A stretch of DNA of 44,094 nt from Caldifarciminota bacterium (GTDB lineage Bacteria; Hydrothermota; Tepidihabitantia; SM23-42). The notes under the pieces were generated by a model. The model was not told the origin of the DNA, did no database searches, and saw only the letters and a list, made by a program, of their open reading frames with translations. Position numbers and translations under genes: made by a program. Below are positions 4,407 to 43,822 of this stretch, in pieces; position 1 is the first letter of the stretch; every line of letters begins with the position of its first letter. The DNA is taken from the NCBI GenBank assembly GCA_020353055.1, contig CP070686.1, forward strand, positions 418,888 through 462,981, in the 5' to 3' direction.

Positions 4407-4459
4407 ACTACCTCCTTTTTCTGCAGATTCGTTGCACAGTAGATGCAAACTGATTGATA

Positions 4460-4546: not shown

Positions 4547-4572
4547 ATGATTGAATACATATTGCCTCAATC

Positions 4573-6033: not shown

Positions 6034-6137
6034 GTTTCCTCCCATTATACGTGTACTATACTATATTGACGCAAACTCATGTCAAAGATGCATCCCCACT
6101 TTCTTTCTTCCTGCTTTAGGAAGAAGTGAGGATTATA

Positions 6138-6349: not shown

Positions 6350-6487
6350 ATAAACCCCCCTTCAAAATACAATTATTACTGGTTATGAAAGATCACTATA
6401 CAAACCCTAGCCACAGACATGCAACTACAGATTGCACAGCTTATTATGAATACACAGCAAGCTGGCCGCCCTCCAGCTGTTGAAATA

Positions 6488-6552
6488 GAGGTGTAGTGCG
6501 GACAGGACGCATTACACCTCCAGCCACGCGTGCCGTACCGCCACGCGTGGCT
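6488..6552. repeat. Two tandem strong hairpins
   Basis: Hairpin 1: GAGGTGTAGTGCG (6488-6500) pairs with CGCATTACACCTC (6508-6520), 13 bp with one G-T pair and a 7-base loop. Hairpin 2: AGCCACGCGTG (6522-6532) pairs perfectly with CACGCGTGGCT (6542-6552), 11 bp with a 9-base loop. They are one base apart. The surrounding gene-poor stretch 6350-6711 shows nothing else I can name. They lie downstream of the response regulator and may end its transcript, although no T-tract follows on the minus strand. Confidence 0.6.
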
Positions 6553-6711
6553 CCCCTCATTATAGAGTATCTACATAGAATGTCTACGTTTCTACCTTAT
6601 TTAATTATAAGCGCGTTGTTGCATTTCCACAATTGGCAAATTCCTTAAATTGTACTTCGAATTTTCTTAGAAAGCGAAGCTGGTATGTCTGAGCTGGTGG
6701 TTTATGATTTT

Positions 6712-7365: not shown

Positions 7366-7451
7366 TTATCCTCTGCCATGAGATTTTTTTTCTTGCATTA
7401 CTTTGAGTTGCACACTGACGCCATGTAGGGCATATGTTATCATTATGGCTC

Positions 7452-9341: not shown

Positions 9342-9483
9342 GATATTCCATGATACTTCGGAATCGCCCTACAAAAGTGATTTCGGGAAGAAGTTTGCTT
9401 CCACTGTGCTCTACGAAGCAATCTCTGTACGATATAAAACGACAATACTTAAACAGCACGACCACAAGATTTACGCATCTCAT
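9334..9483 (-). CDS. Possible 49-residue leader ORF coupled to the histidine kinase
   Basis: ATG 9483 follows a strong ribosome site (GGGAGG, 7 bases upstream) and a good promoter. The frame runs 49 codons (starting MRCVNLVVVLFKYCRF) to a TGA that overlaps the kinase ATG by 8 bases. It could be a small protein or a leader peptide whose translation opens the kinase start. I recognise no family. The composition is not strongly protein-like, so the coupling is better supported than the product. Confidence 0.4.
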   Translation of the reverse strand: MRCVNLVVVLFKYCRFISYRDCFVEHSGSKLLPEITFVGRFRSIMEYHA

Positions 9484-9544
9484 GTTATTTCCTCCCTGAT
9501 ATTTGTTTAGTACGGGGCCTGTCGATACTCAGATATATAACTTA

Positions 9545-9572
9545 ATTCTATTCATAGTACTAGAACTGTCAA
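9545..9572 (-). promoter_or_regulatory. Sigma-70-type promoter of the histidine kinase unit
   Basis: On the minus strand TTGACA (9567-9572), a 16-base spacer, then TAGAAT (9545-9550). The bases before the -35 box read AATATTGACA, as at the three Ser/Thr kinase genes. Confidence 0.6.
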
Positions 9573-9608
9573 TATTTAAACTAAAGACTTAATCCTCGTC
9601 GGCGGTTG

Positions 9609-9638
9609 GCCCCCGCATCCTCAAGCGGATGCGGGGGC
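9609..9638. terminator. Perfect 12-bp GC-rich hairpin
   Basis: GCCCCCGCATCC (9609-9620) pairs perfectly with GGATGCGGGGGC (9627-9638) around a 6-base loop. It lies 26 bp beyond the stop of the beta-helix gene and is its likely terminator, although it lacks a T-run on the minus strand. Confidence 0.55.
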
Positions 9639-9663
9639 TATTGACCGGGCATCGGATGATGCG

Positions 9664-11643
9664 CTATCTGACAAACAGGATTTTCTGTGATTCTGTTCTA
9701 TCTCCACACGATAATCTAACGAAGTACACGCCAACTGGTAATTTCCTGCCGGCGTTGTCATCGCCGTACCAACTAATCTGCACGGGGCCTGTGGCATGGG
9801 CCATAGCGTTGTACAGATCCCTAACCAAACGACCAGTAGCGTCATAGATTTTCACTTCCATACGCTCTGCGTTTTGTTCCACGCTGAAGTTGATAGTAGT
9901 CATGTCACGGAATGGATTCGGATGGACCTGCAGATTCAATATGCTGGGTTTTGTGACTTCGTATTCCTCAATACCGATTAGTACTGAGTCTGTGAGCCAT
10001 GGATCAAAGTCAACCGGCCCGGCGATTGTTCCGACGGGACTACTTGGGCTGCCCCACCAGTTATATTCCGCATCAATTGTGTTAGGTTCTTCGTTCATGA
10101 TCACCCATCCTCCGCTATTGCCATAGATGTTTGAGTAATGAATATCGAAAGGAGCACAGCCACCACCGTCGACATGTATACCATTACTACCAATGTTATT
10201 GGCGATGGTACAGGAGTCGATGGTCGGTGAACAATTTGTGTCGCAGTCTATAGCAGAGGCATAGACGGTTGCGGTGTTGAAAGTGATTACAGTATGCTTG
10301 ATGACCGGAGAACAATCGTTTAGTAATTGTATACCAGCTGCCCGTGTAGCGTTATTATATGTGATAGTATTTTGTTTGATGAAAGGAGAGGAGTTACTAT
10401 AACAACAAATACCTGCACCAGCTCCATTGTATACTGTGTTACTGTCGATCATATTCTCGAGAATATATGGTGAACTCGTTATGTAGCACATGATACCTGC
10501 ACCGCCAGGTGTATTAACGGTATTCTTACGAATAGTATTACCCTGAATCGTTGGTGACGAACCATACGCACACGTGATTCCACCACCTACACTATCCGCA
10601 GCGTTATCCATGATATCATTGTCATAGATATAAGGGTGGGAGTAATCTGAACAGCGAATACCAGCGCCAGAACTTGCTGTGTTTCCGCTGATGGTATTGT
10701 GTCTGATCTGGGGGCTTGAATTCTCGTGCACCCATATACCGCCACCTTTGAACGCGGAATTATTAGAGATTAGGTTACTATCTATCACGGCTGTGGAGTT
10801 CGTGTAACTCGCGATTCCGCCTCCCATGGAATCAGCAACATTGCCGATAATGTCATTATCAATAATAATTCCGGCGCCTTCAAGACCGATACCGGCTCCC
10901 CACATGGCTTCGTTGTTCTCGATAGTGTTATCCCTGATGGTCGGAGCACAGGCTCCTCCTGCGCCAATTCCGCCAAACCAGTAAGTACCTGTATTGCCGG
11001 AAATAGTATTTCCAATAATCGATGGTGAAGACGAATAGGCGCAGCAAATGCCTACTGACCCAAAGTCGGCGAGATTATTCGAAATGACATTGTTCTGGAT
11101 CGTCGGGTGTGAGCTTTCATAACATCCTATACCGGCTCCAACGAAATGGGATATGTTACTGAAAATACTGTTGTTTTGGATCAAGGGCGAAGAGTTATTG
11201 GCACATTCGATACCAGCACCCATTGAATCCACTACATTGTTCGCGATGACGTTTTCTCTGATAGTGGGTGATGCACCGTTTCCACAGTAGATACCACCTC
11301 CAGCGACACTGTGATATCCATTTTGGATTGTGAATCCTTCGATTACGGTTGCATTGCTGAACGTACCAATGATCTCTATTACCCGTGCTGTTCCGCCGCC
11401 ATTTATCATTGTAACCGCTGCACCGTTTTCACTGATGAGATCGATCCCCTGCATAATAGGCCAGACGATGTTTTCGTAGTATGTACCTTGACCGACGAGC
11501 ACCGTGTCACCGGTTGAGCATGAATCGAGACAATGTTGTATGCAGTTCATTGTCGAGTCTGGATGGACGTACCAGACCGTTGCGTTTGCCGTGCTGAACA
11601 GTAATACTGCGATTACTGTTGCACATATGCTTGTGTACTTCAT
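9664..11643 (-). CDS. Secreted right-handed parallel beta-helix protein with sorting domain
   Basis: 659 residues. The start is placed at ATG 11643: a ribosome site (AGGGGGT) precedes it and a signal peptide follows (KYTSICATVIAVLLFSTANA). An upstream extension of the frame overlaps the neighbour and has no support. Residues about 60-540 are parallel beta-helix (NosD / pectate-lyase-like) rungs of about 23 residues: repeated NTISNN, GGGI.C..SSP.I..N. The family binds or cleaves polysaccharides or acts as a surface fibre; no catalytic residues stand out. The end is a sorting domain (IYDATGRLVRDL, LPVGVYFVRL, KILFVR). It probably follows the hydrolase gene in one transcription unit. Confidence 0.87.
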   Translation of the reverse strand: MKYTSICATVIAVLLFSTANATVWYVHPDSTMNCIQHCLDSCSTGDTVLVGQGTYYENIVWPIMQGIDLISENGAAVTMINGGGTARVIEIIGTFSNATVIEGFTIQNGYHSVAGGGIYCGNGASPTIRENVIANNVVDSMGAGIECANNSSPLIQNNSIFSNISHFVGAGIGCYESSHPTIQNNVISNNLADFGSVGICCAYSSSPSIIGNTISGNTGTYWFGGIGAGGACAPTIRDNTIENNEAMWGAGIGLEGAGIIIDNDIIGNVADSMGGGIASYTNSTAVIDSNLISNNSAFKGGGIWVHENSSPQIRHNTISGNTASSGAGIRCSDYSHPYIYDNDIMDNAADSVGGGITCAYGSSPTIQGNTIRKNTVNTPGGAGIMCYITSSPYILENMIDSNTVYNGAGAGICCYSNSSPFIKQNTITYNNATRAAGIQLLNDCSPVIKHTVITFNTATVYASAIDCDTNCSPTIDSCTIANNIGSNGIHVDGGGCAPFDIHYSNIYGNSGGWVIMNEEPNTIDAEYNWWGSPSSPVGTIAGPVDFDPWLTDSVLIGIEEYEVTKPSILNLQVHPNPFRDMTTINFSVEQNAERMEVKIYDATGRLVRDLYNAMAHATGPVQISWYGDDNAGRKLPVGVYFVRLSCGDRTESQKILFVR

Positions 11644-11743
11644 GTTTACCCCCTTTTGCGAATCTTGCCCAAAATCCAGTTTGGTCGCAAAATTCAGCAT
11701 TACGTTTTTTGTGAGAAAAGGCGGGATGATAGCTGCCTTCTGA

Positions 11744-13207
11744 TTATCTAACAAATAACACCTTCTTTGTATCTGAAAACTCACCTGTGTGGAGCGTGAC
11801 GAAGTAGACGCCACCCGGCAATTTGCTATCATTTTGGTCTGTACCATCCCACTGCACCGATGACTGATGACCGATAATAGAAAACGGTCCAAAATCCTTA
11901 GCTAAACGACCGCTAACATCGTAGATCTTGATATTCACTTCTTGCCCGGATTGTGTTGCTCTATTATCTGTCATCTGATATCTGATATCAGTTATCTGCG
12001 TAAAGGGATTCGGGCTGACCATGAGATTTGCGAAGCCAGATACTGTGGTTTTGTGTTCAGCGATTCCGTATTGTAATGCCCAGTCAAGGAGTACCACTAC
12101 CATGGGTCCCAGATCATTGAATGTATCGACTTCTCTGTTAGTTAGTATGATCGCACCAGAATTCTCAGCCGGGCAAAACATCATGGTGGCTGAAGTCCCA
12201 ATCCAACCACCGGTGTGCCCCCAGACCCAGCGGCCCGAGTATTGACTCAGAAAATACCACCATGTCATACCGATGTATGCATTTGGGAACAAGGTGATAG
12301 TATCCTGTATCGTGCGCATTAAGGCTACAGTCGTGCTGTCCAATATCCTGACACTATCAAATTCTCCGTATTGCATGAACATCATGAGAAAACGTGTGAG
12401 GTCCAACACACTGGATTTGAGGGTGCTCGATGGATAAATACAGGTACTGGGATAACCCTGGGGAACGTACTGACCACCTGAGTAAACATAGGGCATGGCA
12501 ATATTACTCAGATTCAAATTCGCGTAGAACCATGATGTCCTGGTCATGTCTAAGGGATCGAAGATGTGTTGCTGGCAGTAAACTGGGAAGCTGTCGGCTA
12601 CTGCTTCTGTAAGATAGCCGGCGAGCGAATTCCCGACATTGGAATATTCCCAGTGACTGCCTGGTGGATAATTCAGGAAGTTTAGGGAGTTATACCAGTA
12701 TCCGCTAGAATTGAAGTAATTGTACGTGAATGTGTCCAGGGGTACCGGTGAATCGCCACCAAAAACTGTCAACATACTCCACAGGGCCCAGCGGTCTTCA
12801 ACGCAACTATTATGGACAAGTAAATTGCGTGGTGTGATCGTGTCATTCGGGTAGTAGTAGTGGACTACGTCGAAGGGAAGCAAGTCGTTTATGTTCTGAT
12901 CAAGCTCAAACAGATCGTCTTCCCACGCGTTCATAGCAGCAACCGCCGTGACCGTTTTGGAGATCGAACCGAGATTCCATATCGTGGTGTCTGTGGCTGG
13001 AATGCTGTTTTCAATATTTGCCCAACCGTACGCGCCTGTCCATATTATCTCCCCGTTCTTTACGATGCTTGCTGCAAGACCAGGTAAATGGAGTGAATCC
13101 ATCCAGAAAAGAAAACACGAATCCAGGTTTGTGGAACCAGGATATTGAGCATATGCACTGCTGCACAAGAACAGCATTGCGAGACATAATATACGAACAT
13201 ATTTCAT
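11744..13207 (-). CDS. Exported beta-lactamase-fold serine hydrolase with sorting domain
   Basis: 487 residues. The start is ATG 13207, preceded by AAAGGAGG and followed by a signal peptide (KYVRILCLAMLFLCSSAYAQ). The motifs are SISK (nucleophile), YSN in HWEYSNVGNSLAGYL, and HTGG in WGHTGGWIG, the class C / PBP4* layout. The sorting domain closes it (IYDVSGRLAKDF, LPGGVYFVTL, KKVLFVR). Its nearest relative in the window is 4573-6033, but with a full-length tail. It lies 2 bases after a small ORF and 152 bases after the LVIVD gene, so it probably belongs to the sigma-54-driven unit. The substrate is unknown. Confidence 0.88.
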   Translation of the reverse strand: MKYVRILCLAMLFLCSSAYAQYPGSTNLDSCFLFWMDSLHLPGLAASIVKNGEIIWTGAYGWANIENSIPATDTTIWNLGSISKTVTAVAAMNAWEDDLFELDQNINDLLPFDVVHYYYPNDTITPRNLLVHNSCVEDRWALWSMLTVFGGDSPVPLDTFTYNYFNSSGYWYNSLNFLNYPPGSHWEYSNVGNSLAGYLTEAVADSFPVYCQQHIFDPLDMTRTSWFYANLNLSNIAMPYVYSGGQYVPQGYPSTCIYPSSTLKSSVLDLTRFLMMFMQYGEFDSVRILDSTTVALMRTIQDTITLFPNAYIGMTWWYFLSQYSGRWVWGHTGGWIGTSATMMFCPAENSGAIILTNREVDTFNDLGPMVVVLLDWALQYGIAEHKTTVSGFANLMVSPNPFTQITDIRYQMTDNRATQSGQEVNIKIYDVSGRLAKDFGPFSIIGHQSSVQWDGTDQNDSKLPGGVYFVTLHTGEFSDTKKVLFVR

Positions 13208-13209
13208 GA

Positions 13210-13347
13210 TTACCTCCTTTTGATAGCTTCGTTGTGCATGTTGATCCAACGAATTTGTTGTATGGCTACCCTTTCTTTTTCTTCTTCCGTCAATGGAGCG
13301 TCTAAATGACATGCAGCAGTTGGTATATTCGCGTAATCCATAATCAT
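13210..13347 (-). CDS. Small 45-residue charged protein, unknown
   Basis: ATG 13347 to TAA 13212-13210. It begins MIMDYANIPTAACHLD and continues as a likely amphipathic helix rich in Glu, Lys and Arg (LTEEEKERVAIQQIRWINM). It starts 12 bases after the LVIVD stop, and its TAA lies within the ribosome site of the hydrolase, so it fits as a linking gene of an operon. The protein-like composition favours a real gene, but I know no family and the ribosome site (GGGAAC) is weak. Confidence 0.45.
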   Translation of the reverse strand: MIMDYANIPTAACHLDAPLTEEEKERVAIQQIRWINMHNEAIKRR

Positions 13348-29438: not shown

Positions 29439-29532
29439 GGAGGCGGATGGGTGCTGGTGTGCCTGACGGGCTTCAAACCCGGATGTCCTTCGAAAGGGGG
29501 ACGGTAGGTTCGATTCCTACACGCCTCCGCCA
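29439..29532 (+). tRNA. selC: tRNA-Sec (anticodon UCA)
   Basis: 94 bases with encoded CCA. The acceptor stem is GGAGGCG with CGCCTCC plus discriminator G and CCA. The anticodon loop is CTTCAAA, which reads UGA. A long variable arm (GTCC...GGAC) and a T arm GTAGG-TTCGATT-CCTAC are present. Length and long variable arm match bacterial tRNA-Sec. An eighth acceptor pair would be G-A, a small oddity. It serves the UGA codons in selD and the small selenoprotein gene of this window. Confidence 0.93.
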
Positions 29533-31303: not shown

Positions 31304-33226
31304 TTAGCGGTATTTTTGTCCCAACACCCTTACGTCGCCCCGTTTGATCGTGACGCCGCGCGTGTCGAAGTAAATCAGCAATGGCAGGACGAACTTACGG
31401 CTTGCGTCGAGCAAGTCCCGAAATTGAGAAACTCTGATTTCTTTGTTTGTCTTCAAAAAATCGACCAGTTTTTGCTCTGCTTCTTTAACATTCTTCTGGT
31501 GTAACACAATACCTTCACCGGCATTCACAAGTAATCCCGTATCGAGCATATAGCGGTATGCCTTTTTGATTGTGCTCTCAGAACCTAGGTTGCGGCTGAG
31601 CAGACCATCATAATCAGGTGGTTTATAACCGCTTTCAAGAAAGAGTTGCTCGATCTTCTTGATCATGGTATCAAGGTCTTTATCGACAACAACTTTGTGT
31701 TCAAAAAGATTGACCTTCCCATCCGGTGTGAGGCGCACTATTTTTGCTTCTTCCATCGCGCGGAGCGTACGGTCGAGTAGAATTTTATCAAGACCACGGC
31801 TGATGCTCTTCAATAATTCAAGGGTCGATAGTCCGACCCCGGTTGGATTCGCTTTGTGATATGCGTGTAGTTTTTCATTGATTTGCGCCATCAGTTTCTC
31901 ATGATTCTCCTGGTGATAGTAAAGTCCGCGTTTCTCGTCAAGGCATATGATCTTCTTTTGCTGCGTCAAATTCTCAGTCAGTTTCTTGATTTCCTCTAAT
32001 GGTAAATTCACATCGTGGGCGATTTCTTCGAGTTTTCGCGGCAGGTCAAAATTCGCCAGTAAATCTTCCTCCACCACCACGAGGGGTTCACCGACTTCCA
32101 TTCGTTGCAGGTGGCTGATCAATTCCTCGTCGAATCCCTTAGCCTTGGTTGCTTTTGGCTCGATGATGAGACCCCCACCAATAGTTATTTGGGGCGAGTA
32201 GGTTCTTACTACATAATTATCGTTAATATCACAAACGGCCGGGGATTCCAATCTGAACTGAACCATAGCCTTTAGACCAGGTTCGAGTAGCTTCTTGTCA
32301 AGTAGTACCACGCGTCCGAATATTTCATTCGTACCGACATGAATCCGCAGTCTGGTAAAATTCTTTAGTGGCTTACCAGCAGACGACAACAAGTATAAAG
32401 AAGCATTAAGATACTCTGAAGGTTCGAAAAAACCTGGTTGGGCAAGTACATCGCCACGTTCGATTTCGCCTTTGTCAGCACCTACAAGGTTTATAGCAGC
32501 GCGAAAACCAGTCCGTGCGGTATCTATTTTCTTGTTGTGAACCTCGATCCCCCTGACCTTGACGCTTTTCTTCTCAGGTAGTAACTCAACGCTATCGCCA
32601 ATTTTGACCTTACCGGACAGCACAGTGCCCGCGACCACGGTGCCGAATCCTTTTATCACGAACCGACGGTCAATGGGCATTCTGAAAATTCCGCGGTCCG
32701 TCTTCGGTTCGGTCTGGGCGATCAGTTCATCGAGTGATTTTCTCAGTTCTACAATACCTTCCTTTGTGGTATTCGAAACCGTAATGATCGGTGCATTCTC
32801 AAGGAATGAATTACTCAGCGCACCCTTCACATCCTCTATCACTATTTCAAGCATATCTTTTTCAACGAGATCCTTCTTGGTGATCACAACAATACCCTTC
32901 TTTATACCGAGCAGTTTGAGGATCTCAAGGTGTTCGTGGGTCTGTGGCATGACTCCATCATCGGCGGCGACCACGAAAATTACGAAGTCGATAGTTGAGG
33001 CACCAGCCACCATGTGCCGCACAAACTTTTCGTGACCGGGGACATCGATTATCGTAACATCCTCGCTGTAAAAAACAAAGCCGAGGTCAGTGGTCATGCC
33101 GCGTTCTTTTTCTTCTTTTAGTCTATCTGGATCGACGCCGGTGAGTGCTTTTATCAATGCACTCTTTCCGTGGTCGATATGACCCGCAGTGCCAATGACT
33201 ATGTGCTTCTTCGAGACACTGGTCAT
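31304..33226 (-). CDS. selB: Selenocysteine-specific elongation factor SelB
   Basis: 640 residues, a normal bacterial length. GTPase domain: G1 GHIDHGKS (15-22), G2 GMTTDLGF, G3 DVPGHE (61-66), G4 TKKD. EF-Tu-like domains 2 and 3 follow. The C-terminal part is the chain of winged-helix domains that binds the SECIS hairpin; its last domain has ISQFRDLL-like [23 protein letters not shown] and [10 protein letters not shown]. SelB delivers Sec-tRNA to UGA codons followed by SECIS hairpins. It lies downstream of selA in the same direction. Confidence 0.97.
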
Positions 33227-33388: not shown

Positions 33389-34780
33389 TCAAATTGGTTT
33401 CAGCACTGTCTTAAAAGCTTCCAATATGACTTTCTCCTCACCTTTCAACACGGTGCGGAAGTCGAGAAGCAGGGTATCTTCAGCAACCCTGCCATAGACT
33501 GGTTTGTGAAAAAGCCGCAAAGCACGCGCCAGATCATCAATCGGCAGATCTACAGATTGTACGGCTACCAGGAAGGTTGGTAATTGCTCTGTACTGAGTG
33601 AACCTCCGCCGATTTCACTCACACCGGGTTTTACAGAAACCCGAAGGCTACTGCCAAAAGATGCTTTCAACGCTCTTGCACATCGGTTTGCATGTTTTTT
33701 GATTTCATCGAGTGGCTTGAGTAGAATGCCTAATACAGGGTGATTCAGGAGGAGGTCCTCCTCTTTGAGCAAGAACGTTTGAAGCGTTGCCTCGAGTACG
33801 GCATTCGTGAGTTTATCGCACCTCAAAGCGCGCGTCAGCGGATTCTTCTTTATTTTCTCGATGTATTCCTTTTTGCCGATGATTATTCCACACTGTGGCC
33901 CACCGATCAACTTATCGCCACTGAAACATACCACATCAGCACCCGCTGCAATGCTCTCCTGGACCATGGGTTCTTTGGGCAAGCCGTAAATGGAAAAATC
34001 GATTAAAGCACCGCTCCCGAGGTCATCGATCACGGGGATATTGTTCTCTCGCGCCAGCGGGACTAGCTCCTCTAAGGACACTTCTTTGGTGAATCCTATA
34101 ATACGGTAGTTTGATTGATGTACTCGTAGTATTGCACCCGTATTCTCGTTTATGGCTCCTGCATAGTCCTTCAGGTGGGTACGGTTTGTGGTGCCTATTT
34201 CATGCATTGTTGCTCCGCTCTGCGCCATTATGTCCGGTATCCGGTATGCGCCACCTATCTCAATGAGTTGGCCTCTTGATACGATCACTTCTTTACCTTT
34301 TGCCATCGCATTGAGGATGAGCATCGTTGCTGCAGCATTATTGTTTACGATAATGCCTGCCTCGGCCCCGGTCAATATCTGCAGCAGACGATTGATTTTC
34401 CTGTAGCGATCAGCCCGTTTGCCTTCCTCATCGATCTGCAGACGGGAATAGCCCCTTGACATGTCATGAACTACTTCGGCAATGCGCTTGTTGAAGGGCG
34501 CACGGCCAAGGCCCGTGTGCAATACAATGCCAAGTGCATTGACCGCATAGCAGAAGTAGGGACTGATCAGATCTTGAATTTCGAAGAGAATCGCTTTCTT
34601 CAGATGACTGAGGTCAAGTTTTTCCCCTGCCAGCAGACGTTTGCGGTATTGTTCTATGTTATCACGGATAATTTCTGTGACGTGGTTTTGTCCAAGAATT
34701 TTTAGTGATTCTTTGATTTCATTCCAGTTCAGTACCTTATCGACTGAGGGGATATTCCGTAGTATATCTTTATTTTTCAT
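33389..34780 (-). CDS. selA: L-seryl-tRNA(Sec) selenium transferase SelA
   Basis: 463 residues, family-typical. PLP enzyme that turns Ser-tRNA-Sec into Sec-tRNA-Sec using selenophosphate. N-terminal tRNA-binding part, then INALGIVLHTGLGRAP-type segment (NALGIVLHTGLGRAPF, 81-96), and the PLP lysine K290 in FSGDKLIGGPQCG. ATG 34780 is preceded by GAAGGAAA. The unit selA-selB has its own consensus promoter. Confidence 0.97.
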   Translation of the reverse strand: MKNKDILRNIPSVDKVLNWNEIKESLKILGQNHVTEIIRDNIEQYRKRLLAGEKLDLSHLKKAILFEIQDLISPYFCYAVNALGIVLHTGLGRAPFNKRIAEVVHDMSRGYSRLQIDEEGKRADRYRKINRLLQILTGAEAGIIVNNNAAATMLILNAMAKGKEVIVSRGQLIEIGGAYRIPDIMAQSGATMHEIGTTNRTHLKDYAGAINENTGAILRVHQSNYRIIGFTKEVSLEELVPLARENNIPVIDDLGSGALIDFSIYGLPKEPMVQESIAAGADVVCFSGDKLIGGPQCGIIIGKKEYIEKIKKNPLTRALRCDKLTNAVLEATLQTFLLKEEDLLLNHPVLGILLKPLDEIKKHANRCARALKASFGSSLRVSVKPGVSEIGGGSLSTEQLPTFLVAVQSVDLPIDDLARALRLFHKPVYGRVAEDTLLLDFRTVLKGEEKVILEAFKTVLKPI

Positions 34781-34887: not shown

Positions 34888-35610
34888 TCAGATCGACAAC
34901 GCAGCGCCGATCGCTCCCACAAACTGGGCATCTTCCGGTATTATGACTTTTTTGAAAATGCGTCTCATAGATTTGACAAGTCCAGGGTTCAGTGCACCAC
35001 CACCACAGAACAATATCGGTTCCTCGATGCCTATCTGGCTACCGATGCCGTCGATTCTTCGCACGAGGGCATCGCATACCCCGGCGACAATATCCTCAAT
35101 CCTTTTACCTTCACCGACGAGGCTGAGGATTTCGGTTTCAGCCATGACCACGCAGAGCGAGTCGACAATTTCTGCACGGTCTGCTTGTACTGCTAACTCG
35201 CCGAACTCAGCTAGGGTAAGGCCGAGGGCTTGCGCAATCTTCTCAATGAAATTGCCCGTTCCTGCGGCGCAACGATCGTTCATAATGAAACGGTCAACGC
35301 GTCCATCTTTGACCTTTATGATCTTGCTATCCTGTCCTCCTATATCGATGACCGTTCGTATCGATGATTCAAAGAACAGAGCACCACGTGCGAAAGCCGA
35401 AATTTCGGTAATCATTTTACCGGCAGAAACGACGAGCTCCCGTCCGAATCCAGTAGCGACGACAGTGTCATATCCCTTGAGTTCATGTAGTGCTCGTTCG
35501 ATCGCCTGTCTTGGTTTGAAAGAGGTTTTGAAAACGATTTTGCTATTTATCCCACCGTCGAAGACAACGCCTTTGGTGTAACTTGAACCTACGTCTAAAC
35601 CCAGTACCAT
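34888..35610 (-). CDS. ATP-dependent activase of the 2-hydroxyacyl-CoA dehydratase family (HgdC/BcrA-D-like)
   Basis: 240 residues, ASKHA ATPase fold: LDVGSSYTKG (phosphate 1), DIGGQDSK (about 89-96), NDRCAAGTGNF. The two Cys that hold the bridging [4Fe-4S] of the homodimer are C114 and C153; their 39-residue spacing equals that recalled for Acidaminococcus HgdC. In the family, ATP hydrolysis pushes one low-potential electron to a Fe-S partner. It is the last gene of a six-gene overlapping operon, and its start overlaps the preceding gene by 16 bases (ribosome site AAGGAGA). Confidence 0.93.
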   Translation of the reverse strand: MVLGLDVGSSYTKGVVFDGGINSKIVFKTSFKPRQAIERALHELKGYDTVVATGFGRELVVSAGKMITEISAFARGALFFESSIRTVIDIGGQDSKIIKVKDGRVDRFIMNDRCAAGTGNFIEKIAQALGLTLAEFGELAVQADRAEIVDSLCVVMAETEILSLVGEGKRIEDIVAGVCDALVRRIDGIGSQIGIEEPILFCGGGALNPGLVKSMRRIFKKVIIPEDAQFVGAIGAALSI

Positions 35611-36626
35611 CCTGTCTCCTTCGCAGCGTTCACAAAAGCTATTAAATTTTCAGCGGGTGCTTGTGTGGGGACTTCGCAGCCAGTTGCTGCAATGTAACCC
35701 TTAGCCGCATTCTTCGATTGTCTGACCATTTCTGTTACTTCGTGTGTAATGACATCCGGGGAGGAAAATGCGAGTTGCGATGTGTCATAATTGCCAATGA
35801 GGCGCAGTTTTCCAGATATTTCTTCTATTGTGTCCGACATGCTGACACGATCAATGCTGATGAGGTCGGCATGCGTTTCCGGCAATAGATTGACAATGGG
35901 CGTCGTTTCGCCGCAAATGTGGAGTATAACATCGAGGTCATAGCGGTGCAGATAATCAATGAGCCTTCTTTCGTACGGTAGCGCATACTGCTTGTATGCT
36001 TTTGGACTTATTACACTGGATGACGCAAGCGGATCAACAATGATCGGCAGACCACCAGCATCGATGGTATGGTAGCATAATTCGATTGCGGCATCCAACG
36101 ATTTTGCCAGAATCCTTTCGATCTGAACAGGTTCTTTGATCGTCTGCATGAGGAATTCATTTGGCTCGGATAGCATCATCCCGGTGGTAAATGGAGCAGG
36201 TATGTAGACAAGAATGGGAACTTTGTCTCCGAGAGCATCGTACGCGTACTCAATTGCTTCGAGATATACAGGGAGTCGTGCTGTAGTTTTTGGATTGGGG
36301 ATCGTTAATTCGTCGATTTTCTTTTTCTTTAACGCGGGTACCCTCTGGATTGGCAGGTCGTTTTCCGGATATTCGAACACTGAGCCCATTGCTTCTGCAA
36401 TGATACCTACTTCGGAGAAAATTGATATAGCATCGTGTCCGTATTTCTCGAGTGCGGCAATCTGTGCTCGTGCCATGTTCTCGCCGTTTGTGTAATAATC
36501 CCTGAGTTTCATATCTTTGACAGTTGCGGCATGCGATGTAACCAGGGGCATGATATTACAGCGGTCGGGTCTTTCGTCGATTACTAATAATCCGAATCTT
36601 TCACGCGGTGTCAGGATATCATTCAT
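35595..36626 (-). CDS. MtaA/UroD-family methyltransferase-like protein, copy 2
   Basis: 343 residues. The start is ATG 36626, whose ATGA overlaps the stop of the gene before; the frame is open a further 162 codons, but that part lies antisense to nothing and in the wrong frame of the preceding gene, with nonsense-like composition. Uroporphyrinogen decarboxylase / MtaA fold with zinc-ligand motifs LHICGETTP (HxC) and, near the end, TGCEVPTQ (Cys). In MtaA-type enzymes these hold Zn that activates a thiol to accept methyl from a corrinoid. The partner is likely the corrinoid protein at 39907-40536. Confidence 0.9.
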   Translation of the reverse strand: MNDILTPRERFGLLVIDERPDRCNIMPLVTSHAATVKDMKLRDYYTNGENMARAQIAALEKYGHDAISIFSEVGIIAEAMGSVFEYPENDLPIQRVPALKKKKIDELTIPNPKTTARLPVYLEAIEYAYDALGDKVPILVYIPAPFTTGMMLSEPNEFLMQTIKEPVQIERILAKSLDAAIELCYHTIDAGGLPIIVDPLASSSVISPKAYKQYALPYERRLIDYLHRYDLDVILHICGETTPIVNLLPETHADLISIDRVSMSDTIEEISGKLRLIGNYDTSQLAFSSPDVITHEVTEMVRQSKNAAKGYIAATGCEVPTQAPAENLIAFVNAAKETGWYWV

Positions 36627-38014
36627 CTCAGCATTTCCAAGAATGCTGCAATTCTTGTTCTGAGTTGTTCGGTTATTCCCAAAGGCCCGGGAACATCGAT
36701 CGCGAGCACTGGCACTCTCTTCAATTTTTCTTCGATCAATCTTGTTTCCATTGCGCAGTGAGAACAACCCAACATGTTGCTTATGATCACCCCGGCCACC
36801 TTGCCAGAATCGACACCTGTTGTAATGTTGCGGATTCGTTCCTCTGTTGAACCGATCATGGAAGCATCCATGAATGATCTGGCAAGAGCGACGAACGGAT
36901 CGATTTCTTCGTCGATCTCTACCAATGCCTGGTTGATCACATATTCGGTTGCCACAACTCGACCGCCCAAATCTTCTACAATATTGAGTAGCAAAGGATC
37001 CGCGGTAGGGGTGACCCAGGCGAGAGGAATTGCATCCGGACGCAGTACACCCAAACCTTTTTCGATACGACCCAGGATTGTTTCTTTTACCATACTCAGA
37101 ATATTCAACCATTCATCGATGTCCGCATAACCATATAGATTACCGAACTCGATGACCATCATTTCGAGCCCGGGGTATGGCGCGATATTTGCATTGTGGG
37201 TGAGTTCCCTGATTTCATGTGTCAAACGGCGCAGCCTGTTATTCTTGTTGATACTCTGTTTGAGTCTTTCTGTATCATCAGTGCCTGTCAGCTGCTTCAT
37301 CTTATGCCAAACGCGTTTATATTCATCCACCAAGTATGTTTCGAAACGTTCCGGGTATTCAAAACCGTGGGCTGTCTTAGTATATCTTTCCTCTACGTGG
37401 TAATCTTTTCGGTGCCTGCGATAGGGGATCTCGAGCCAGTTCAGTTCGTAACCCATGTCTTCGACCATTTGCATGATGCACGAGTAGTCATCACAAGATG
37501 CTCCAGTCGATGCGAACAGAATATCTGGTTTTGGGAAATATGCCATTTTGTGAAAAGCGGCAAGTGTTGAGCGTACAAAACAGCTCCCTTCAGGCGTGCC
37601 GAGTTCACTTGCTTTGTCGAGTAGTACAGTTGATTCATTGAAGAATGGTGTCCACCATGTGCAGTCAGGGTAGAACGGAACACACTCTGGGAAGGACATA
37701 GTGATCACGGGTACGGTTCCAAGATCGCCCATTGCGGCGACGATGTGCTTTCCACTCTGGCGGGCACGGAACAATCTTTCGGATTCGTTGAATGCAAACC
37801 CCCAGAGCCTGAGTGCTGATAGTGAATTATCGAACTTTAATTTCTTCAGTTCTCTGGCGCCGTAAACCATGAATGTTGCTGGAGGAGAGAGATACACGCC
37901 CCATTCATCATTGCCATAATACTTGAACTGTTTTATGTCCGTATCCTCAAGCAGGCGGAATTGGGTGCTCCATTGTCTTAGGTCGATCTTCTGAGGGGCT
38001 ATGTTTTCGAACAT
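36623..38014 (-). CDS. 2-hydroxyacyl-CoA dehydratase-family Fe-S protein, large
   Basis: 463 residues from ATG 38014, which has GGAG 5 bases upstream; it overlaps the gene before by 16 bases. An ATG at 38047 lacks a ribosome site. HgdA/BcrB-like two-lobed fold with several Cys that could ligate a cluster: PECVPFYPDC, GSCFVRS, GASCDDYSC, and the C-terminal LGCSHC with the family ending VLAIDVPGP. It probably pairs with the 329-residue protein as a heterodimer that takes electrons from the activase. No CoA substrate genes lie nearby, so a dehydratase role is doubtful. Confidence 0.88.
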   Translation of the reverse strand: MFENIAPQKIDLRQWSTQFRLLEDTDIKQFKYYGNDEWGVYLSPPATFMVYGARELKKLKFDNSLSALRLWGFAFNESERLFRARQSGKHIVAAMGDLGTVPVITMSFPECVPFYPDCTWWTPFFNESTVLLDKASELGTPEGSCFVRSTLAAFHKMAYFPKPDILFASTGASCDDYSCIMQMVEDMGYELNWLEIPYRRHRKDYHVEERYTKTAHGFEYPERFETYLVDEYKRVWHKMKQLTGTDDTERLKQSINKNNRLRRLTHEIRELTHNANIAPYPGLEMMVIEFGNLYGYADIDEWLNILSMVKETILGRIEKGLGVLRPDAIPLAWVTPTADPLLLNIVEDLGGRVVATEYVINQALVEIDEEIDPFVALARSFMDASMIGSTEERIRNITTGVDSGKVAGVIISNMLGCSHCAMETRLIEEKLKRVPVLAIDVPGPLGITEQLRTRIAAFLEMLR

Positions 38015-38988
38015 AACATCTCCGCAAAAGCCTCGATTCTTGTCCATAACTGGCTATTGCTTTGATAGGAGAAATCACTCCGTATTCTCAATGTCGGTAG
38101 ATTGAATTCCTTTTCGATCTTGCGCAATTCGAATTCATATACATCACAGTAATCAAGTGTCCATGCAATGACGCCGGCACAATGCAACCTGATAATTTGC
38201 TCGCCTACGAAGTCGTAATATTTTCGATGAGGTCTTTTGTGCATACAAGGTGGCTGTTGGTAGTATGCATGTTTTATACCGGCAATACTTTTCTCCGTTA
38301 TTCTTATTTGAAGAGGGCGTGAGATACCACAGTTGAAATCACCAACAATACGCAGTTTTTTCTCTATCAACCGCAGGATGTGATTGGCTTCATACGCTAT
38401 GGCGCTGCCCACCAGGTATACTCTCGGTTTCTCCGATATGTCATGGCGAGGAGTAGCAGATTCGTCAAAAGAACTTTGGTGATAACTGGTCATCACGTTG
38501 TGGAAGTCCGCGGTCGATACAAGCGATGGGCATGCTGCCCTTTCCTCATCGATTTTTCGCAGTTCGGCGCGTATTCCTTCCCATTTGTCGATTTCATTTT
38601 TGACTATTCCATCTGTGTATTTAATTTGCGAAAATGATTCGAGCTGTTTGACCAGCCAGTCAATTTCGTCAGAATATATATATGGCTTGTCGGTTCTTGG
38701 ATTGTTCACAACGTAGACCGGGATTGATGTGCGTTCGCTCAGCACGTCGAACATTCTGCGAGACATATCGCATCCGGTTGATCCTATCAGCATTGCGAAT
38801 TTTTCTTCATTTTCAAGGACGTAGGTGAGGTTTGATTTAACCATTGGACAAGCATCTACACGTACTATTTTTTCCCCTCTTTTTGAAAGGTTGATGTCAC
38901 CGTGTAGTAGCCGATATGGTCGCAATCCAGTTGCCGAGAGTAATTCGACGGGTACGTAGGCACATGCATATCCGATCATCTGCATCAT
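37999..38988 (-). CDS. 2-hydroxyacyl-CoA dehydratase-family Fe-S protein, small (HgdB/BcrC-like)
   Basis: 329 residues. The start is at ATGATG after GAGGGAT, with ATGA overlap of the preceding stop. Family features: C9 in GYACAYVPVELL, C47 in VDACPMVKS, C73 in STGCDMSRR, the usual three Cys for a [4Fe-4S] cluster; later Cys in RLHCAGVIAWTLDYC and the closing TLRIRSDFS. It is the likely partner of the 463-residue protein. Both subunits are full length with Cys sets kept, so an active Fe-S protein is expected. Confidence 0.88.
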   Translation of the reverse strand: MMQMIGYACAYVPVELLSATGLRPYRLLHGDINLSKRGEKIVRVDACPMVKSNLTYVLENEEKFAMLIGSTGCDMSRRMFDVLSERTSIPVYVVNNPRTDKPYIYSDEIDWLVKQLESFSQIKYTDGIVKNEIDKWEGIRAELRKIDEERAACPSLVSTADFHNVMTSYHQSSFDESATPRHDISEKPRVYLVGSAIAYEANHILRLIEKKLRIVGDFNCGISRPLQIRITEKSIAGIKHAYYQQPPCMHKRPHRKYYDFVGEQIIRLHCAGVIAWTLDYCDVYEFELRKIEKEFNLPTLRIRSDFSYQSNSQLWTRIEAFAEMLCSKT

Positions 38989-39929
38989 ATCCCTCTAAGT
39001 TCATTACCACATTCGCTGGCAATACGGAGCATGGTTTTGATATTTTCAGGATTTGTTTGGGCAGGAACATCGCAAGAGGTTGACAGGATTATTGGTTTTT
39101 GTCTGAGCGCGTTTTCTACCTCAGATCTTATGCGTCTGATATCGCCGTTCAATATTGTATCGGTTCCTACGCCGCCCATTCTTACAGTGTCCGTCTGGAC
39201 GTCAATATTTTCAACGCTCAATATGTCAGCACCCGACGTATCAAGGTGTTTGAGTATGGGACTTACATCACCACATATGTGTATGCCGGCAAGCACGCCG
39301 TGGGCTTTTGATTTTTCGATAATACTCTTGATCCCCACTAACGCGTGTTTGGCAAAAACGGCGGGTGATATGACACTCGAAGATGCGAGTGGGTCTCCGA
39401 TCATTATGTTGACTCCAACGGATAGTATTCTCTCCAAATATTCAAGTTGGTTTTGCTGTGCGTCACGCAAGAGCTGTGAAGCCTCGTTTTCGTTTTTCAA
39501 TATCATTTTCAGAAAACGCTCAATGCCGCCAAGAAAAGCCGCAAGCGTGAACGGCCCTTTGACCGAAACGAATATGGGAACGTCAAGTTTGTCTTTCAAA
39601 ATCTCGGCGGCACGAATGATCTCTTGCGTGCGGTCGATAGAATTATTGCTCGCAGGTCCGAGCAGAGTAGGGTAAGGGTTCAATTTGACTGGGCAGCCCA
39701 TGGATTGTGCTTCGACATACGGATCTGAGAAGACGAGCACCATGTCATAACCATAAAGTTCATAGCAGCGCTGCAGGACCCGTGCGAGTTTTTTGCCGTT
39801 TTGGGCAACTTCCTTGAATTCGAGACGCAACAAATGTGCACCGTGGTCAGCGCAGACCATGGGGAAAACCGCAATACTTCTCTGCTGATTCAAGACTGCG
39901 GAGATTTTATCCACCGATGATTCTTTCAA
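38985..39929 (-). CDS. MtaA/UroD-family methyltransferase-like protein, copy 1
   Basis: 314 residues. UroD/MtaA-type barrel with zinc motif GIHICGDVSP (HxC) and third ligand in STSCDVPAQTNPENI. The phrase IGDPLASSSVISP is shared almost word for word with copy 2 (VDPLASSSVISP), so the two are paralogues; the rest has diverged, which suggests different methyl donors or acceptors. It overlaps the corrinoid protein gene by 23 bases, which ties it to methyl transfer with that protein. Confidence 0.9.
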   Translation of the reverse strand: MKESSVDKISAVLNQQRSIAVFPMVCADHGAHLLRLEFKEVAQNGKKLARVLQRCYELYGYDMVLVFSDPYVEAQSMGCPVKLNPYPTLLGPASNNSIDRTQEIIRAAEILKDKLDVPIFVSVKGPFTLAAFLGGIERFLKMILKNENEASQLLRDAQQNQLEYLERILSVGVNIMIGDPLASSSVISPAVFAKHALVGIKSIIEKSKAHGVLAGIHICGDVSPILKHLDTSGADILSVENIDVQTDTVRMGGVGTDTILNGDIRRIRSEVENALRQKPIILSTSCDVPAQTNPENIKTMLRIASECGNELRGI

Positions 39930-40536
39930 TTAATGTCACTGTGGAAGGGCCATCCGGGCTATAGCCATCGGCCTTGATCTTCATGGCGAATTCGTGGTTA
40001 ACCGGTGCGCCGCCAACGATGACTTTCACATCCCCACGCAGTTTGCGCTGTTCGAGTTCTTTGATGACCATATCCATTTGTGTCATCGTTGTCGTCATGA
40101 GACTCGACAAGGCCAGGATATCCGGTTTTTCTCTTTCTACAGCCTCGACGAATTGTGTATAGGGTACATCCCTGCCCAGGTCAATTACTTCATAGCCCGC
40201 TGCTTCCATCATGACTTTGACAATATTCTTGCCGATATCGTGGATGTCACCTTCTACCACGCCAATAACAATTTTCGCCTTGGGCTTACGGGATGATTTT
40301 CCGATCAGAGGTTTAATGATATCGAATCCCGCGTAGAAGGCTTCTGAACTGAGTAGTACTTCAGGTACGTAGTATTCTTTGCGTGCAAACAAGATTGCAA
40401 CTTCCTGCATTCCGGAAATTAATCCGTCCTCCAGGATGTCAACTGGGTTAATCTCCTCTCTCAGCGCTTGAGATACAAGGGCGGCAACCTTGCTGTCATC
40501 CATGTCGATAACGGCTTTTCTCAGCAATTCAAACAA
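39907..40536 (-). CDS. Methyltransferase corrinoid protein (MtbC/MtmC-like)
   Basis: 209 residues. Helical cap domain (about 1-85), then the B12-binding Rossmann domain with GDIHDIG (D97-x-H99-x-x-G102), H99 being the lower cobalt ligand, then SSLMTTTMTQM and VGGAPVN. It shuttles a methyl group between two methyltransferases. The start is TTG 40536, preceded by GGAGG. It is the first gene of the six-gene operon; there is no dedicated MtaB/MtmB-type substrate methyltransferase, so one of the UroD-like proteins must fill that role if the system is complete. Confidence 0.93.
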   Translation of the reverse strand: MFELLRKAVIDMDDSKVAALVSQALREEINPVDILEDGLISGMQEVAILFARKEYYVPEVLLSSEAFYAGFDIIKPLIGKSSRKPKAKIVIGVVEGDIHDIGKNIVKVMMEAAGYEVIDLGRDVPYTQFVEAVEREKPDILALSSLMTTTMTQMDMVIKELEQRKLRGDVKVIVGGAPVNHEFAMKIKADGYSPDGPSTVTLIERIIGG

Positions 40537-40561
40537 TAAACCTCCATGTGTGTTATATATT

Positions 40562-40590
40562 ATAATAATAAGGTATCACGTAGTAGTCAA
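40562..40590 (-). promoter_or_regulatory. Promoter of the corrinoid operon
   Basis: Minus strand TTGACT (40585-40590), 17-base spacer, TATTAT (40562-40567), about 25 bases before the TTG start. Confidence 0.6.
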
Positions 40591-40668
40591 GTATTCCGCT
40601 CTGCGCTACCTTTCTTTAAGTATGATGTTCTATCGCAATAATAGTAGTATCAAATTACCATCTATTTT

Positions 40669-41460
40669 CTATTTTTGCCCGATGAACAAGCCTCGACCCA
40701 CCTTATGTTCGTGGGCGGCTTTCTGCCAGATAGTGACCAGATTTGATGCGAAGTCGAAGAGGTCCTTCCCGAAATTGTCGAGTATCGTGGGTTTCAGATC
40801 GACATGTACCTTCTCGTAGTATTCGTCAAAGCATTTTGCGTACTCTTCGGTTTGGTCCAGCGCCTGGAGTAATTTGAAACCGTTCTTCTTAAGCAGTTCC
40901 TGATATCCATCAAATGATTCCATGTAGGGAAACGCCATTGTCTCGAGCAATGGGTCCAGCTCCTTTTCTGAGATTACCCCTGTGATTATCCAGTCGGTGA
41001 ACGCGATCTTTCCGCCCGGTTTTAGCACGCGGTGCGCCTCTTGGATGAGCCTGTTCTTGTCTGTGACATAGCACCATGCTTCCTGACCCCATACCACGTC
41101 GAAGGTTTCTTTCTTGAAGGGAAGGTCTATAGCATTGCCTTCGTAGTATTCGATGAGATGCTCGAGTTTGGCATCCTTTGTCCGCTGGCGTGCTTTTTCA
41201 AGCATTGTCTTAGTAGCGTCGACTCCCTTTACAGTCACTCCGTATTTGCTTGCGAGATGGCGAGCTGGTGCGCCCAGTGCACTGCATATGTCACATATGA
41301 CCATACCTTTTTTGAGGTCCACCTGCAATGCAAGTGCATCAGTCGCTTCTGGTCCGCCTGAGTGTATCTGTTCTCCCATTACTGCTTCCCATAACAGTCC
41401 TCCCGGACCATCATACACATCCTGTACGTCCTTTATTGTGAAGTCCTTAATGTACTTCAT
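40669..41460 (-). CDS. SAM-dependent methyltransferase, class I
   Basis: 263 residues. The Rossmann core has a modified motif I (VICDICSALGAPARHLA, 55-71), motif II GVDATKTML, and FDVVWGQEAW. The opening (WEAVMGEQIHSGG) resembles sarcosine/dimethylglycine N-methyltransferases, so a small amine, thiol or metalloid is a fair guess for substrate. ATG 41460 has AAGGAG upstream. It starts 1 base after the FTR-like gene stop, so the two are translationally linked. 132 bp separate it from the corrinoid operon, which has its own promoter. Confidence 0.88.
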   Translation of the reverse strand: MKYIKDFTIKDVQDVYDGPGGLLWEAVMGEQIHSGGPEATDALALQVDLKKGMVICDICSALGAPARHLASKYGVTVKGVDATKTMLEKARQRTKDAKLEHLIEYYEGNAIDLPFKKETFDVVWGQEAWCYVTDKNRLIQEAHRVLKPGGKIAFTDWIITGVISEKELDPLLETMAFPYMESFDGYQELLKKNGFKLLQALDQTEEYAKCFDEYYEKVHVDLKPTILDNFGKDLFDFASNLVTIWQKAAHEHKVGRGLFIGQK

Positions 41461-41461
41461 G

Positions 41462-41764
41462 TTATACTCCTTTCACTTTATAGAATAATTTACAGAAACA
41501 GTGCCCGTCTTTGTGAATCTCGTCATTCATTTCAGGACAGGGGCAAAGTGTATCTGACCGTGGGTTCAATGGATGGATATGTTTACAGGGACAATAATAA
41601 TTGCCGAATTCCATCTTGTTCATCGTCATGAGGCCGATGACTTTTCGTAGCCTTTCCACATCGGGATTGAGCACGTAACCATTGTCTTGTGCCATTTTGA
41701 CTATTCTTGCAAGATTTTTATTGTATTCAGTAGTGCCTGCTACCGAATCCCATCTACTTCTCAC
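41462..41764 (-). CDS. Ferredoxin:thioredoxin reductase catalytic-subunit-like Fe-S protein
   Basis: 100 residues; GTG start at 41764 with GGAGG 7 bases upstream. The cysteine set of the FTR catalytic chain is present: CPC (58-60), CPC (74-76) and CFC (89-91, usually CHC) in KDGHCFCKLFY. In the family four Cys hold a [4Fe-4S] and two form the active disulphide. Spacings differ from plant FTR (13 and 12 residues between the pairs), so it is a variant. It may reduce a disulphide or selenenyl-sulphide in a partner. First gene of an operon with the SAM methyltransferase. Confidence 0.88.
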   Translation of the reverse strand: MRSRWDSVAGTTEYNKNLARIVKMAQDNGYVLNPDVERLRKVIGLMTMNKMEFGNYYCPCKHIHPLNPRSDTLCPCPEMNDEIHKDGHCFCKLFYKVKGV

Positions 41765-42209: not shown

Positions 42210-42228
42210 GGGCGGGTTTGCGCCGCCC
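42210..42228 (-). terminator. Terminator of the small selenoprotein gene
   Basis: GGGCGG (42210-42215) pairs with CCGCCC (42223-42228). On the minus strand the stem is followed by TTTCTGTTTT. It lies 26 bp beyond the stop at 42254. Confidence 0.65.
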
Positions 42229-42253: not shown

Positions 42254-42493
42254 TTATTTGTATTCGGTAACACTTCTTATTGATTCGACATGCACATTCG
42301 CCTTGGCAAATAATTCTTCGAGGCTTTTTCGATCAGGCGCACTCCAGCAGCATATTGCCTGGCTGTTCTCTTCATCAATGTATGCTTTGTCCATGCAGAG
42401 ACTGCCTCCTCCGGAAGCAGTGATGACGGCCTTTCAGGATGAAATGATTTCGTCTTTGGGCATTTTTGGAAGGGTGATGAGATATTTCGGCAT
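42254..42493 (-). CDS. Candidate new selenoprotein, DUF4242-like, 79 residues with in-frame UGA
   Basis: ATG 42493 follows AAAGGAGG and a strong promoter. Reading codon 20 (TGA, 42434-42436) as Sec gives one frame of 79 residues to TAA 42254. It starts MPKYLITLPKMPKDEIISS, then Sec20, then KAVITASGGGSLCMDK. It continues AICCWSAPD and ends VESIRSVTEYK. The second half fits the DUF4242 / nickel-binding SCO4226-like ferredoxin-fold pattern (..YC.YEAPs.e..re......v..I.eV). Both sides of the TGA are coding in the same frame, a SECIS-like hairpin follows at the right distance, and the full Sec machinery is nearby. Sec20 with C33, C48 and C49 suggests a redox or metal-binding site. Standard calling would show only a 19-codon stub. 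Confidence 0.82.
42401..42421 (-). promoter_or_regulatory. SECIS-like hairpin of the DUF4242 selenoprotein
   Basis: On the minus strand ACTGCTTCC (42421-42413), loop GGA, GGAGGCAGT (42409-42401): 9 bp with one G-T pair. It begins 12 bases after the UGA, and the loop is 21 bases after it, inside the range of bacterial SECIS elements, with G in the apical loop. Confidence 0.7.
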
Positions 42494-42509: not shown

Positions 42510-42537
42510 AATATAGCGCGGATCATGAATGTGTCAA
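42510..42537 (-). promoter_or_regulatory. Promoter of the DUF4242 selenoprotein gene
   Basis: Minus strand TTGACA (42532-42537), 16-base spacer, TATATT (42510-42515). Confidence 0.7.
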
Positions 42538-42787: not shown

Positions 42788-43822
42788 TTACGGGATCAGT
42801 GTTACTCGACCGGAGTTTTCTGCTGTTGCCCGGCCAATGATGGAAAAATCCTTCCTGTAATTATGTTTGAAGGCTTCAACCCGTTCTTCAGGCAGGGCAA
42901 CGATCAACCCACCGGAAGTTTCCGAGCCAAAGATCAGATTGACAAGATTCGAGTCGCTGTTTCCCTTGTTAACGCGATTACTAAAGGAATTGATATTCAT
43001 TGTGATGCCCGGTTCAAAAATACCTTTGTCCAGGATGCCCACGGCTCCTTTGTGGGTCGGGATTTTTTGCAGCGAGACTTCTATGCCGACGTTGCTTGCT
43101 TCGCACATTTCAACGAGGTGGCCGATAAGACCGTAGCCGGTGACGTCGGTTGCACCGTGTGCCTCGGCTTTTCGCATTGCCATTGAAGCATCTCTGTTCA
43201 ACGTAGTCATGGCAGCAATGACCGGTTTCATGTCTATTCCCTCATCTTTGCCCATAAGCATTGCCTGGATTACTGTTCCAACACCAACTGGTTTGGTCAG
43301 AATGAGCACATCATTGGGTTTTACCCCTGCGTTTGTAATGATCTTTTTGGGATGGATATAACCCAGAACCGACAATCCGTACATCACCTCAGGAGAGGCA
43401 AATGTGTGACCGCCGATCGTCGTAACGCTGGCTTCCTTTGCTTTATCACTGCCACCTTTAAGCATCTCACCCAGGATTTTGGAGTCACCCATACCAGGGT
43501 AGCCGACAATGTTCAACGCCAGTTTTGGATCGCCGCCCATAGCATAAACGTCCGATATGCAGTTTGCGGCCGCGATCATTCCGAAGGTGTAAGCGTCCTC
43601 GACAACCGGTGTAAGAATGTCAATCGTCTTCACCAGAGCAAGATCATCATTCAGACGGTAGACCCCTGCATCGTCTGCCGTATTCGTACCGACAAGTAGA
43701 TTGGGGTCTTCTACCGGTGGCAGATATTTCAGTGCCTGCGCCAACTGCGCGGCCGAGAGTTTAGACGCTCAACCAGCGCATTTGACCGTGGCGAGAATGC
43801 CTTTCTTCTTGTTTTCCATCAT
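42788..43822 (-). CDS. selD: Selenophosphate synthetase SelD, itself a selenoprotein
   Basis: 344 residues with Sec. Makes selenophosphate from selenide and ATP, the Se donor for SelA. The frame opens at ATGATG (43822/43819) and runs through a TGA (43769-43771) in VKCAGUASKL, the conserved Cys/Sec site with the essential Lys three residues on. Counted from 43819, Sec is residue 17 and Lys 20, as in E. coli Cys17/Lys20. Later motifs: TADDAGVY, GMIAAANCISDVYAMGG, GGHT, TDVTGYGLIGHL, SETSGGLIVALP. Without recoding the gene would be called from a TTG at 43744 and lose its active site. The -10 box is 5 bases from the ATG and no ribosome site is seen: a leaderless mRNA. Confidence 0.96.
43734..43753 (-). 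promoter_or_regulatory. SECIS-like hairpin of selD
   Basis: On the minus strand GCCGCGC, loop AGTTG, GCGC-A-GGC: 7 bp with one bulged A. It starts 15 bases after the UGA, with the loop 22 bases after it, almost the same spacing as in the DUF4242 gene. Confidence 0.6.

Follow-up and report, generated by a model that had tools for sequence, protein, structure and literature searches.

The locus and its signals

The window that we analyzed is a 44,094-nt stretch of the genome of a Caldifarciminota bacterium (GCA_020353055.1, CP070686.1, 418,888-462,981). On its minus strand lies a 79-codon gene that runs from an ATG at 42493-42491 to a TAA at 42256-42254 and that has an in-frame TGA as codon 20 (Table 1). 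Because of this TGA, the gene was missing from the list of open reading frames, and ordinary gene callers would end at the TGA, so that the gene would be missed or truncated. A first-pass annotation had proposed that the TGA splits what is otherwise one gene with its own promoter, strong ribosome site, and terminator. We agree that there is one gene, and we place it on the minus strand, which that annotation did not give. The ribosome site in front of it (aaaggaggtggttATG) is indeed strong. The promoter and the terminator are weaker: they are matches to a consensus or to a sequence pattern. The promoter-like sequence scores 11/12 and ends just upstream of the ribosome site, but this kind of match is weak on its own (2 were found versus 1.1 expected in shuffles), and a scan flagged the GC-rich hairpin downstream of the gene on the other strand only.

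All four components of the selenocysteine (Sec) system that the first-pass annotation had placed near the gene (selA, selB, selD, and tRNA-Sec) are present in the window. One of them, selD, encodes Sec itself: its TGA (43771-43769, minus strand) lies in the sequence KCAGUASK, which is the classical UxxK motif, and a similar hairpin (GCGCAGTTGGCGC) follows downstream. Where SelD occurs in the class, most genomes have one TGA in it. The Sec-encoding selD is a positive control inside the window. (The N-terminus of selD was cut off in the list of open reading frames.)

Table 1. Positions in the window of the features discussed in the text.
Feature	Position	Strand	Basis or detail
Selenoprotein gene (candidate), 79 codons, SCO4226-like (PF14026), ferredoxin-like fold	42254..42493	-	Homologues, profile, predicted fold
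79-residue product	42254..42493	-	MPKYLITLPKMPKDEIISSUKAVITASGGGSLCMDKAYIDEENSQAICCWSAPDRKSLEELFAKANVHVESIRSVTEYK
In-frame TGA, codon 20, read as Sec	42434..42436	-	TGA in 19/19 Sec-form genes, TGC in one orthologue
SECIS core hairpin GCTTCC-GGA-GGAGGC, 6 conserved pairs	42404..42418	-	Conserved in relatives; published bacterial model
Codon 48, invariant Cys of SCO4226-like family	42350..42352	-	Invariant in 19-member and broad alignments
Sigma-70-like promoter TTGACA-16-TATATT	42510..42537	-	Consensus match only
GC-rich hairpin then TTTCTGTTTT, terminator-like	42210..42228	-	By sequence; weak
selD, Sec-encoding	42788-43819	-	Upstream neighbour of the DUF4242 selenoprotein gene
FtrB-like ferredoxin-thioredoxin reductase catalytic chain, Cys form (PF02943); start codon not fixed	41462..41764	-	
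SAM-dependent methyltransferase	40669..41460	-	
Corrinoid protein, two MtaA/UroD-like methyltransferases, two HGD-D (double-cubane-like) proteins, BcrAD-type activase	34888..40536	-	
selA	33389-34780	-	
selB	31304-33226	-	
tRNA-Sec (selC), anticodon TCA	29439-29532	+	

Conservation of the TGA codon

We searched six-frame translations of 60 related genomes with the read-through protein as the query. Full-length homologues turned up in genomes that share its genus, family, order, or class, and all of them had exactly one internal TGA, except for one homologue that had none. A profile search that covered 147 genomes of the phylum found 19 TGA-bearing genes in 18 genomes, one gene with Cys, and, in G018, a remnant of the C-terminal part. 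All 19 of the sampled Sec-form genes have the TGA at the identical codon; they have one TGA each and are 51-92% identical to the window protein. They come from WOR-3/Stahlbacteria genomes of four families (f1, f2, f6, and f10), and the relatives that we found by scanning a genome collection with one short motif were all candidate division WOR-3/Stahlbacteria MAGs as well. The family was seen in MAGs of one phylum only, and a plasmid search with the selenoprotein found no real relatives.

The sole full-length exception, L019 (from genome G059), has TGC (Cys) at codon 20. It is the only Cys orthologue that we found. In a tree, it lies within the Sec clade on a long branch, with moderate support, and because of this nested position its sequence suggests a secondary change from Sec to Cys. 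Both of the kinds of homologue that the first-pass annotation had proposed to look for therefore exist: those with a TGA, and one with Cys aligned to residue 20. That annotation had also mentioned DUF4242 homologues with Cys near this position; the true Cys counterpart is the WOR-3 orthologue. We rejected the Cys-type DUF4242 sequences from Ilyobacter, Deinococcus, Paracoccus, and Natrinema as matches to residue 20: their Cys is about four columns off (about one helix turn), and it is not conserved among them.

The protein pattern had been said to continue across the TGA, and this is borne out by strong coding constraint. Comparisons between members of the genus give a dN/dS of ∼0.09 for the part upstream of the TGA and ∼0.04 for the part downstream, and both of these figures are rough because dS is high. 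Among the differences in the downstream part, the counts by codon position are 83/32/350, so that third positions account for 350 of 465. Given this constraint past the TGA, the downstream part must be translated in frame with the upstream part.

The distribution of the gene also follows that of the Sec machinery. SelA or tRNA-Sec is present in 19/19 family-positive genomes (SelB is also present in G051, G117, and G010), and the gene is in none of the 15 genomes that have neither SelA nor tRNA-Sec (Fisher p 0.003, uncorrected for ancestry and with several MAGs incomplete). For tRNA-Sec, we counted only strong Rfam matches because loose thresholds match ordinary tRNAs in all genomes, controls included.

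A putative SECIS hairpin within the coding sequence

In the published model, a bacterial SECIS element has a stem of 4-16 bp and a loop of 3-9 nt with a G in the first two loop positions; it lies 16-37 nt from the UGA and has a minimum free energy (MFE) of at most −7.5 kcal/mol (PMC13188914). The core hairpin (GCTTCCGTNGGAAGC) has, in the window gene, G as the first nucleotide of its loop (42412), and the loop starts 21 nt after the TGA. Its stem, its loop G, and its spacing fit the model. The first-pass annotation had described a 9-bp version of this hairpin with a G in the loop (42421-42401, minus strand, starting 12 nt after the TGA). The longer hairpin does exist, but conservation is confined to its six inner base pairs and the G of the loop. 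Taken alone, the window hairpin is not exceptional relative to shuffles (z about −0.9).

Across the 19 genes, there is almost no synonymous change in the stem part of codons 26-30 (GCT TCN GKN GGA AGC): Ala26 is GCT in 18/19, Gly29 is GGA in 18/19, and Ser30 is AGC in 16/16. The fraction of identical codons is 0.75 at codons 26-30 versus 0.34-0.46 elsewhere, and Ala and other codons outside the hairpin vary freely in their synonymous choice. The six stem pairs are 97.4% paired over the 19 genes, with compensatory changes at two stem pairs, in L006 and L018 (the covariation is slight, 2 cells). By sequence, all 19 genes have a core of 5-6 bp and a loop of 3-5 nt with G at loop position 1 or 2. 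The consensus MFE is −8.6 kcal/mol. When 45-nt segments were folded individually, 18 of the 19 reached −7.5 kcal/mol; L037 was at −6.0, and the best fold of L003 is another structure. No matching hairpin is present in the Cys gene L019, which has lost it. Across the relatives, the region that had been suggested for folding as a check holds a conserved SECIS with frozen synonymous sites.

Relationship to SCO4226

The window protein scores 24.1 bits against PF14026 (the curated cut-off is 28.5), and this model matches all 19 members with E values of up to 0.1 (the best is 2.3e-8); 10 relatives from the genome search are above the cut-off. A search of NCBIfam with the window protein gave no model match, including to NF033706, the model for the SCO4226 nickel-binding protein; NF033706 has weak matches (best 9e-5) to 16/19 members. 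Searching the PDB with the single protein sequence gave chance matches only, and searching with a profile retrieved SCO4226. The predicted structure (pLDDT 91.9) also has SCO4226 as its best match in the PDB (4oi6, TM 0.79). The kinship with DUF4242 and SCO4226 that had been proposed is thus confirmed by profile and fold: by these models, the product is a divergent SCO4226-like (DUF4242, PF14026) protein with a ferredoxin fold.

As had been supposed, no selenoprotein of this family seems to have been described. A 2026 inventory lists 119 bacterial and archaeal selenoprotein families, and DUF4242, PF14026, and SCO4226 are absent from it (PMC13188914). We found no paper that joins DUF4242 to selenoproteins (an earlier mention outside the literature that we searched is possible). 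On the sequence evidence, this is a Sec form of a family that was not known to use Sec, and the inventory would gain a family with a non-thioredoxin fold, from an uncultured phylum, and with strong comparative support. The gene resembles those of known selenoproteins with bacterial SECIS elements in its in-frame UGA, in the geometry of the hairpin, and in the exchange of Sec for Cys among orthologues, but its product has a ferredoxin-like fold and no CxxU or UxxC motif.

SCO4226 of Streptomyces coelicolor (PDB 4OI3/4OI6) is a nickel-binding protein with a low affinity for the metal (Kd 10 uM; PMC4186839). We checked our numbering of SCO4226 against the ligand residues that are named in that report. 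The two proteins share the fold and the family profile, and Cys48 of the window protein corresponds to Cys51 of SCO4226 in the only invariant column of the broad alignment. Cys48 is probably the partner of Sec20. Sec20 itself aligns with His23, which is a ligand of Ni-2, and the SCO4226 group has His in this column. Asp40 aligns with Asp43, which is a ligand of Ni-1. However, of the ligands of Ni-1 (Asp43, Ser46, and His76), which is the best conserved of the SCO4226 nickel sites, only Asp43 is kept: His76 is replaced by Arg/Lys73, and the Ser46 position is variable. The nine histidines of SCO4226 are not matched in the window protein, which has only ∼15% identity to SCO4226-type proteins. Because the ligands of the main site are not conserved, nickel binding in the manner of that site is not supported, and the similarity to SCO4226 is kinship of family and fold rather than evidence of the same function. 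For the poorly understood DUF4242/SCO4226 family, the alignment offers a hypothesis for a reactive site that would combine Sec, Cys, or His in helix 1 with the invariant Cys in strand 3.

Genes near the selenoprotein gene

Six genomes of the genus have selD directly upstream of the gene. In members of the genus, the genes that come next in the cluster are those for FtrB, a methyltransferase, a corrinoid protein, and MtaA-like methyltransferases, and then selA and selB. Overall, three genera have selD next to the gene, one has YedE there, and several have a double-cubane reductase. For example, in G025, which belongs to another family, selD ends 11 nt upstream of the gene, and a double-cubane anaerobic reductase, which matches NF040772 above the cut-off, lies downstream together with its activase. 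In G022, a divergent selD and the putative selenium transporter YedE adjoin the gene, and in G059 a double-cubane pair is downstream of the Cys gene. The selenoprotein gene and the double-cubane reductase tend to co-occur (12/19 versus 7/46, p 0.0002, uncorrected for ancestry). In the stretches that we examined, 11/20 loci lacked any gene that we recognised as a selenium gene. In G005, of the same genus, the order selD-FtrB-double-cubane is kept and the selenoprotein gene is absent (L109:2803-4022), so the gene is accessory to the cluster.

The cluster in the genus resembles the type 1 mlp clusters, which also have a corrinoid protein, MtaA-like methyltransferases, and a double-cubane protein and reductase beside selenium genes and for which methyl-selenium or methyl-sulfur compounds have been proposed as substrates (PMC10418091; the term DUF4242 is absent from this paper). 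The copy in the window differs in having two HGD-D-like proteins in place of a double-cubane protein that reaches the cut-off. (Between FtrB and the methyltransferase, relatives carry a double-cubane reductase pair that reaches the cut-off; the window cluster, at 34888-41764 on the minus strand, lacks such a pair.) As for selD, it is like its neighbour in encoding Sec and in having a similar short hairpin, but SelD is an unrelated enzyme of 343 residues. In G014, a gene for a redox protein of the C-GCAxxG-C-C family is directly upstream of the selenoprotein gene and in the same direction (L091:10296-10736).

Decoding and function

We are highly confident, from the comparative sequence evidence, that the UGA at codon 20 is decoded as Sec. 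The host's SelA, SelB, SelD, and tRNA-Sec would carry out the decoding, and the short bacterial SECIS hairpin inside the coding sequence, just 3' of the UGA, would direct the insertion. If the TGA were instead a real stop, then the locus would be a pseudogene or an artefact of a frameshift or of sequencing, or else it would hold a short ORF upstream and a second start of its own downstream. The unremarkable hairpin of the single sequence could be taken in this way, and the remnant in G018 implies that the gene can decay, but a TGA that is kept in 19 genes from independent assemblies, with constraint on both sides, with frozen SECIS codons, and, in the full-length members, with start, ribosome site, and length all intact, makes this very improbable. 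Reassignment of UGA in this lineage, for example to Trp or Gly, is more improbable still. UGA is the normal stop of 6/27 genes in the window, including selA, and so the code is standard, with no general reassignment; a dedicated tRNA-Sec is present; and the one exception has Cys in this column, where Trp and Gly never occur. What might hint at reassignment is L053:1492-1734 (from G071, of another class of the phylum), a SCO4226-like DUF4242 gene whose in-frame TGA falls in a column of Trp. We rejected this gene as support for the Sec family because of the position of its TGA and because SelB was not found in its genome, and its TGA is probably an error or decay.

If codon 20 is indeed Sec, then what might the protein do? 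We picture a small protein with a ferredoxin-like fold, probably a dimer as SCO4226 is, in which Sec20 (helix 1) and the invariant Cys48 (strand 3) would form the reactive site. Its neighbours (the selenoprotein SelD, FtrB, the double-cubane reductase, the corrinoid methyltransferases, and YedE) make selenium acquisition the most likely role, for which we see a little less than an even chance. The protein might then work as a redox shuttle, or it might carry reduced selenium. We favor a step of this kind, based on Sec/Cys redox chemistry or on carrying selenium, because selD lies next to the gene in three genera and the FtrB/double-cubane/corrinoid cluster does so in several, and we hold either version of the precise chemistry only tentatively. 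It is possible, but we think rather unlikely, that the protein is instead a small, general oxidoreductase of thiols and selenols, or a scavenger of peroxides, with no part in selenium acquisition, and that its neighbourhood is incidental. The majority of selenoproteins are regarded as oxidoreductases (PMC13188914), the FtrB-like reductase adjoins the gene in the g1 genomes, the redox protein in G014 is just upstream, and more than half of the loci have no recognised selenium gene nearby. Against such a role, selD, YedE, and the double-cubane reductase recur beside the gene as described above, the fold is not thioredoxin-like, and the protein lacks the CxxU and UxxC motifs. Another idea is that the protein handles metals in the way of SCO4226, with a Sec/Cys site that binds nickel or some other soft metal. 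The nickel-bound protein is the best match to the predicted fold, Sec20 and Asp40 align with nickel ligands, and Sec can ligate nickel, as in the [NiFeSe] hydrogenases (PMC13188914). Nevertheless, we consider this unlikely: the conserved Ni-1 site is not kept, the affinity of SCO4226 itself is low, its histidines have no counterparts here, and the neighbours are selenium and redox genes, with no nickel genes identified in the annotated stretches.

Returning to selenium acquisition, we tentatively suggest a more specific scenario. Sec may have arisen in a ferredoxin-fold family whose SCO4226-type relatives have a metal-ligand His rather than a Cys in this column, and the protein may have become a dedicated carrier of selenium (as selenol or perselenide), or a redox partner, that supplies SelD, with its own Sec, as well as the double-cubane/corrinoid salvage system; the sole known Cys form would be a later replacement. 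How selenium reaches SelD was listed as an open question in a 2026 review (PMC13188914), and the repeated place of the gene beside a selenoprotein SelD and the double-cubane/corrinoid cluster gives a testable lead on this route.

Elsewhere in the window, the region 26-13312 encodes several secreted proteins with Por_Secre_tail domains (a C25 peptidase, a beta-lactamase-fold protein, and a beta-helix protein), which suggests type IX secretion in this WOR-3 genome.
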